Shown here piece by piece: positions 29,986 to 31,385 of a DNA stretch of 64,000 nt. A program made the translations under genes and the position numbers. The DNA lies in contig NZ_CP096019.1 of NCBI RefSeq assembly GCF_023115355.1, positions 186,001 to 250,000 on the forward strand. Direction: 5' to 3'. Under the pieces are notes generated by a model. That model worked only from the letters and a program-made list of their open reading frames with translations, was not told the DNA's origin and ran no database searches. Every line of letters begins with the position of its first letter. The stretch's first letter is position 1. The stretch is from Halocatena salina. GTDB taxonomy: Archaea > Halobacteriota > Halobacteria > Halobacteriales > Haloarculaceae.

Positions 29986-30582
29986 ATGACTCTCACTGTC
30001 GGTGTCATCGCTGTTCAGGGTGACGTTACGGAGCACGAGATGGCGATTCGACGCGCTGCTCGCCGTCATGACGTGGATCCGGACGTCCGCGAGATCCGAA
30101 CGTCAGGGGTGGTTCCGGACTGTGACATGGTTCTCATGCCTGGTGGCGAGTCGACGACGATCTCCCGACTGCTCCGGAAACAGGGGATCGACGGGGAGAT
30201 CACGAGCCACGTCGAAGCGGGCAATCCGTTGTTTGCCACGTGTGCCGGGTTGATCGTCGCCAGTCGAGATCCGAAAGACGAACGCGTTCGATCGTTGAAC
30301 CTTCTCGACGTATCGGTCGATCGGAACGCGTTCGGCCGGCAACGCGATAGTTTCGAGACACAGCTCCGGATCGATGGGCTAGAGACGCCGTTTCCGTCAG
30401 TGTTCATTCGTGCACCTCTCATCGACGCAGCGGGATCGGACGTCGAGGTGCTCGCAGAGTACGACGGCAACCCAGTCGCCGTTCGGGAAGGCCCGGTCGT
30501 GGGCACGTCGTTCCATCCCGAACTCACCTCCGACACGCGACTGCACGATCTCGCGCTGTTCGATACCGATCGTTTGTACTGA
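29986..30582 (+). CDS. pdxT: Pyridoxal 5'-phosphate synthase glutaminase subunit
   Basis: PdxT releases ammonia from glutamine for PdxS, which builds PLP. The 198-residue chain is a class-I glutamine amidotransferase with MPGGEST (51-57), the nucleophile Cys86 in FATCAGLI and the His177/Glu179 pair in SFHPEL. The start TLTVGVIAVQGDV is typical. The partner PdxS is not encoded in this window, so the complex depends on a distant gene. It lies just downstream of secG. Confidence 0.96.
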   Translation: MTLTVGVIAVQGDVTEHEMAIRRAARRHDVDPDVREIRTSGVVPDCDMVLMPGGESTTISRLLRKQGIDGEITSHVEAGNPLFATCAGLIVASRDPKDERVRSLNLLDVSVDRNAFGRQRDSFETQLRIDGLETPFPSVFIRAPLIDAAGSDVEVLAEYDGNPVAVREGPVVGTSFHPELTSDTRLHDLALFDTDRLY

Positions 30583-30624
30583 CGTTCCCGAGGGGTTTTG
30601 CCGTGCGCGCTCTACAGTTGTTGT

Positions 30625-31122
30625 ATGAACGCATCCATCGAAGGCGTCCGAGTAGCGGGCACACAGCGGGGTGCAGTTCCGGTCGTCACACTCGCGCCCG
30701 ACGACGAGGACGAAACGGATCTCCTGCCGATCTTTATCGGTTTCTCGGAGGCCACGAGTATCGTCCGTGGTCTCGACGCCGACGACATCGGCCGACCGCT
30801 CACACACGATCTGTTGCTCGATGGGATCGAAGAACTCGGTGGTCGGATCGATCACGTGGCTATTACGGCGGTCGAAGACGGGACGTACTTCGCCGATCTT
30901 CATCTCGACACTCCACGGGAGTCTGTCGTGATCGATTCTCGTCCGAGCGACGCTCTCGCGCTTGCCGCCCGGACGAACGCCCCGATCGAAATCGCACCAG
31001 ACGTATTCGATGGTGGGGGGGACGATCCGGAGCAGTATCTCCAACTCCACGACATCCGCGAGGTAATCGATGGTTCCGGTCCCGACGTGTGGCCGTCCAC
31101 GGAGGAGGAATTCGATGAGTGA
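30625..31122 (+). CDS. Bifunctional nuclease family protein (DUF151)
   Basis: This 165-residue protein matches the BFN_dom family: VVTLAPDDEDETDLLPIFIG, then EATSIVRGLDADDIGRPLTH and the conserved SRPSDALALAARTNAPI. Plant relatives have nuclease activity; the role in haloarchaea is unproven. The ATG at 30625 begins the conserved strand. The acidic tail (GPDVWPSTEEEFDE) overlaps the start of the hisE-like frame by eight bases, linking the two genes translationally. Confidence 0.88.
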   Translation: MNASIEGVRVAGTQRGAVPVVTLAPDDEDETDLLPIFIGFSEATSIVRGLDADDIGRPLTHDLLLDGIEELGGRIDHVAITAVEDGTYFADLHLDTPRESVVIDSRPSDALALAARTNAPIEIAPDVFDGGGDDPEQYLQLHDIREVIDGSGPDVWPSTEEEFDE

Positions 31123-31385
31123 GGTGCTCGCGGAGCTGTTCGAAGTGATCGAAGACCGAAAGGAAACGTTACCGGATGGCTCTGTTTACCCACGAAAAGG
31201 GATCGAACGCTGTGCTTGAGAAGTTGGGAGAGGAAAGCACGGAACTCGTTCTGGCTGCGAAGGACAACGATCACGAAGAGATCGCTCACGAAAGCGCCGA
31301 CATCGTCTATCACTTGCTCGTGTTGCTCGCGATGTACGATATGCAGCTAGAGGATCTCCTTGAAGAGCTAGAGCGTCGGCGGTGA
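31115..31385 (+). pseudogene. hisE: Phosphoribosyl-ATP diphosphatase with internal frameshift
   Basis: HisE hydrolyses phosphoribosyl-ATP in histidine synthesis. The N-terminal helix (MSEVLAELFEVIEDRKETLP) starts at 31115 but that frame stops at TGA 31217-31219. The rest of HisE (LFTHEKGSNAVLEKLGEE, then HESADIVYHLLVLL) continues in the +1 frame from about 31176 to 31385. Family members usually have about seven residues (such as EDSYTAS) between LP and LFTHEKG; here only seven bases remain. A deletion of roughly 14 bases would explain the break. The downstream frame alone could give a 69-residue protein starting at ATG 31176 that keeps the metal-binding Glu residues but lacks helix 1. Confidence 0.85.

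Follow-up and report, generated by a model that had tools for sequence, protein, structure and literature searches.

A probable recent 14-base deletion in the only hisE gene of a Halocatena genome and the histidine auxotrophy that it predicts

The hisE gene of Halocatena salina, expected to encode phosphoribosyl-ATP pyrophosphohydrolase, lies in two different reading frames, which raises the question of whether the sequenced strain has lost a step of histidine biosynthesis, makes the enzyme in an unusual manner, or has simply been recorded wrongly at this point. The locus is part of a 64,000-nucleotide stretch, hereafter the window, from a 4.0 Mb genome that is assembled in five contigs and is 98% complete. 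In the hisE region the nearest relative is Halocatena pleomorpha, with 94% protein identity, and synteny with this sister extends over long stretches of the window at ~81-93% nucleotide identity (86.5% in the main 26 kb block); these values indicate that the two are separate species of the same genus. Among the relatives of Halocatena are haloarchaea that form hyphae and spores (PMC10067837). At the locus, pdxT is followed by a gene with a bifunctional nuclease domain (BFN_dom), hisE and, on the opposite strand, a DUF5518 gene. Both upstream neighbours are intact on the plus strand, the pdxT/SNO glutamine amidotransferase gene at 29986-30582 (profile match) and the BFN_dom gene at 30622-31122 (open reading frame and profile match), and the start of hisE shares 8 bases with the end of the latter, its ATG lying at 31115 and the BFN_dom stop at 31120-31122.

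A preliminary description of this DNA had reported that the first 20 codons of hisE and the remainder are in different frames, with about 14 bases missing and no intact HisE, and all of this is borne out by the frame reads, the PRA-PH matches and the alignment with the sister. The 5' part (31115-31219, plus strand) consists of codons 1-20 (MSEVLAELFEVIEDRKETLP), which cover helix 1 and include the conserved EDRK Arg, followed by out-of-frame residues. Frame 1 from ATG 31115 reads MSEVLAELFEVIEDRKETLPDGSVYPRKGIERCA; after the 20 HisE residues it continues with D-G-S and foreign residues to its first stop, the TGA at 31217-31219, and translation from the normal start thus gives 34 residues. The 3' part occupies the +1 frame as a 69-residue open reading frame from ATG 31176 (31176-31385, plus strand; MALFTHEKG...ELERRR). 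Aligned at the DNA level with the intact hisE of H. pleomorpha (locus L038), the gene has suffered a net loss of exactly 14 bases after ~31175 with clean homology on both flanks, the junction occupying 31175-31182 of the plus strand. Since both halves are ~94-95% identical to the sister protein (94% for the C-terminal part against H. pleomorpha HisE), the match of the split gene cannot be attributed to chance. The pentamer GGCTC at 31178-31182 fits the left-hand reading (D-G-S, as in the family) as well as the right-hand one (A-L-F, as in a single relative with T-T-A-L-F, L034). This family pattern points to a possible 5-base microhomology, and the pentamer may be the expected trace of two short direct repeats, present in an unseen ancestor, between which the bases were deleted. 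The junction itself seems to have created ATG 31176.

Compared with the monofunctional HisE described by PF01503, TIGR03188 and NF001611, the locus is alike in the sequence of both halves and in the metal-site motif, and it differs in the broken frame, in the absence of 14 bases together with the S-Y-T loop, and in having no single coding frame. The +1-frame part matches PRA-PH/HisE with 70 bits (TIGR03188) and retains the metal-site motif EExxE...ExxD as GEESTE...ESAD. The 69-residue frame matches PF01503 with 60.3 bits over profile positions 28-86 only, and its NF001611 score of 74.4 is below the cut-off of 99. If the sequence is read through upstream of ATG 31176, the PF01503 match covers positions 13-86, and one open frame over the whole PRA-PH domain (PF01503 ~2-85) is absent from this genome. 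To the missing bases noticed earlier we can add the loss of a motif, the S-[YW]-T loop found eight residues past the conserved Arg, which is missing here in either frame. In plant HISN2, glutamates and an aspartate from the two long helices form the metal site, and Arg183, Ser195 and Thr197 hold the AMP phosphate, which according to the authors marks the N1-phosphoribosyl site (PMC8102479). In the profile match, the Thr of the family falls on residue 152 of the 7bgm chain, with S-Y-T aligned to Ser-Trp-Thr, and this residue corresponds to Thr197 provided that the 238-residue chain spans residues 46-283. By analogy, S-Y-T and the upstream Arg are the predicted phosphate-binding residues of the hisE product. 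The 69-residue fragment is without both of them and the product of a +1 frameshift would retain the Arg and still be without S-Y-T, so that a working enzyme would be expected from neither.

None of this is seen in the other genomes searched. A family match was obtained in 57 of 59 genomes, the present one included; the two exceptions are draft genomes with a completeness of 81% and 59%, and in all 56 other genomes the best PF01503 match runs unbroken from position 1-4 to 85-86. The 116 other hisE loci, representing 108 distinct proteins, are all intact; S-Y-T, the Arg eight residues earlier and the metal motif are kept in all 108, the spacing from S-Y-T to KLGEE is identical in 107 of them, and the split arrangement was not found in any. 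Each of the seven Halocatena genomes has one hisE, intact in the six others, and the start of the domain is missing only here. The lesion is thus a disrupting one of 14 bases without counterpart in close relatives, as would be expected of a recent pseudogene.

What remains of the pathway gives the break its meaning. Open reading frames exist for hisG, hisI, hisB, hisD, both His_biosynth genes (hisA/F), hisH and hisC, and a search of this genome for a second hisE with the family profile, a check proposed earlier, returned a single PF01503 match and no further copy. A HisIE fusion was also considered and rejected. With no second hisE and the remaining pathway present, the best supported of the earlier proposals is a real deletion with predicted histidine auxotrophy: we estimate a probability of roughly 0.7 that a recent 14-base deletion has left a null hisE, which would make the sequenced strain a histidine auxotroph. 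Slippage between two short GGCTC repeats probably removed the 14 bases, shifting the frame of the only hisE in the genome. The remaining frame would yield at most a 69-residue fragment with the metal-binding helices but with neither helix 1 nor the Arg nor the phosphate-binding S-Y-T loop; hydrolysis of phosphoribosyl-ATP would then fail, and the strain is for this reason predicted to require histidine. Most likely, a pathway that is otherwise intact has lost one gene to an ordinary loss-of-function mutation, with no new mechanism involved. Recent pseudogenes and loss-of-function alleles of amino-acid biosynthesis genes are a known phenomenon in cultured prokaryotes, and the present case resembles them in its one lesion, in the one affected step of an otherwise complete pathway and in its undecayed remnant, with no difference of note. 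A literature search found no paper on the histidine needs of the strain.

The most serious alternative, improbable in our estimate and still deserving attention, is that the deletion was introduced during assembly or consensus calling, or belongs to a minority variant of the culture, and that the organism itself carries an intact, working hisE. The intact remainder of the his pathway agrees with this, as does the purifying selection visible in the remnant. Over the 68 codons past the junction shared with the sister, the only ones covered by the test and so few that a very recent lesion would leave no trace in them, dN is 0.039 and dS 0.744 (dN/dS ~0.05), similar to the values for seven nearby genes (dN 0.017-0.065, dS 0.35-0.61). 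A remnant without excess protein changes means that the lesion is very young, was born in culture, or is not real, and the same signature would be expected from an intact living gene, be it behind an assembly fault or in a mixed culture, or from a working fragment. Against an artefact stand the clean loss of 14 bases, which is unlike a one-base homopolymer slip or a typical read error, a repeat of 5 bases that is too short for misleading an assembler, and the 98% completeness of the genome. Moreover, hisE is the only gene broken in its body among the ~58-62 conserved genes of the window (~49 kb aligned with the sister), which argues against a generally poor consensus and leaves room for a single local fault. 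This count derives from a codon-position test against the sister, the remaining flagged cases being read by eye; the test replaced an earlier tblastn scan for frame breaks that had been swamped by antisense and spurious open reading frames. In the other flagged genes the cause proved to be the choice of start codon, a small compensated gap or a spurious frame. The assembly error envisaged in the preliminary description accordingly stands as the less likely course of events.

Two further proposals made there, reliance on the truncated HisE and use of frameshifting, are poorly supported, since both products are without S-Y-T and no relative has the arrangement. The idea that the 69-residue protein begun at ATG 31176 serves as a minimal functional HisE draws on an open frame that is intact and conserved, on the EExxE...ExxD metal motif and on the persisting PRA-PH match. 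The protein would nevertheless be missing the first helix of the swapped dimer, as well as the Arg and S-Y-T whose HISN2 counterparts hold phosphate (PMC8102479), its NF001611 score falls short as given above, its start is seemingly a product of the junction, and such a form occurs in none of the 108 distinct relatives; we regard it as very improbable. Slightly more remote still is a split or minimal HisE working without S-Y-T, in which the fragment would act perhaps together with the 34-residue frame-1 product as a separate helix. A +1 ribosomal frameshift fusing the two parts is conceivable in that the frames overlap from 31149 to 31216, and it can be given hardly any credence, as the fusion would lack five residues and an unsystematic look identified no recoding element; in a programmed case the arrangement should be kept in relatives and the product should carry the essential motifs, and here neither is found. 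Frameshifting conserved across the genus was likewise rejected, the Halocatena relatives carrying intact hisE. Equally negligible is the replacement of the lost HisE by another pyrophosphohydrolase, for which the genome offers a MazG-like gene (G000:C1:2497884-2498078) of the same superfamily and of another family than HisE, because this gene is common to all seven Halocatena genomes beside a hisE that is intact in the others, and is thus not a new replacement.

If a recent deletion has indeed made the strain dependent on histidine, growth tests and media should allow for this need, and the broken hisE could act as a natural his marker for Halocatena genetics, while the species should not be called a natural histidine auxotroph on the basis of one culture; if the fault lies in the assembly, the sequence record needs correction.

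Several minor observations were made alongside. About 20 bases downstream of the junction, TCG at 31203-31205 encodes the Ser of EKGSNAV, a position occupied by Glu in 97 of 108 relatives, by Gln, Asp, Val or Ile in the others and never by Ser; early decay was considered as an explanation and rejected, a single residue being too little. The heptamer GGGATCG (31199-31205) recurs, perhaps by chance, in the linker of the sister that this genome has lost. Two of the compared genomes listed as different species, G002 and G006, have the same main contig size (3,915,224 in both) and the same gene coordinates, and G006, with 9% contamination, may have been assembled from a mixture that includes G002. 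Another Halocatena genome carries, besides the intact hisD of its main chromosome, a further hisD-like gene that is divergent and contains a single in-frame TGA (G005:C3:596160-597362).
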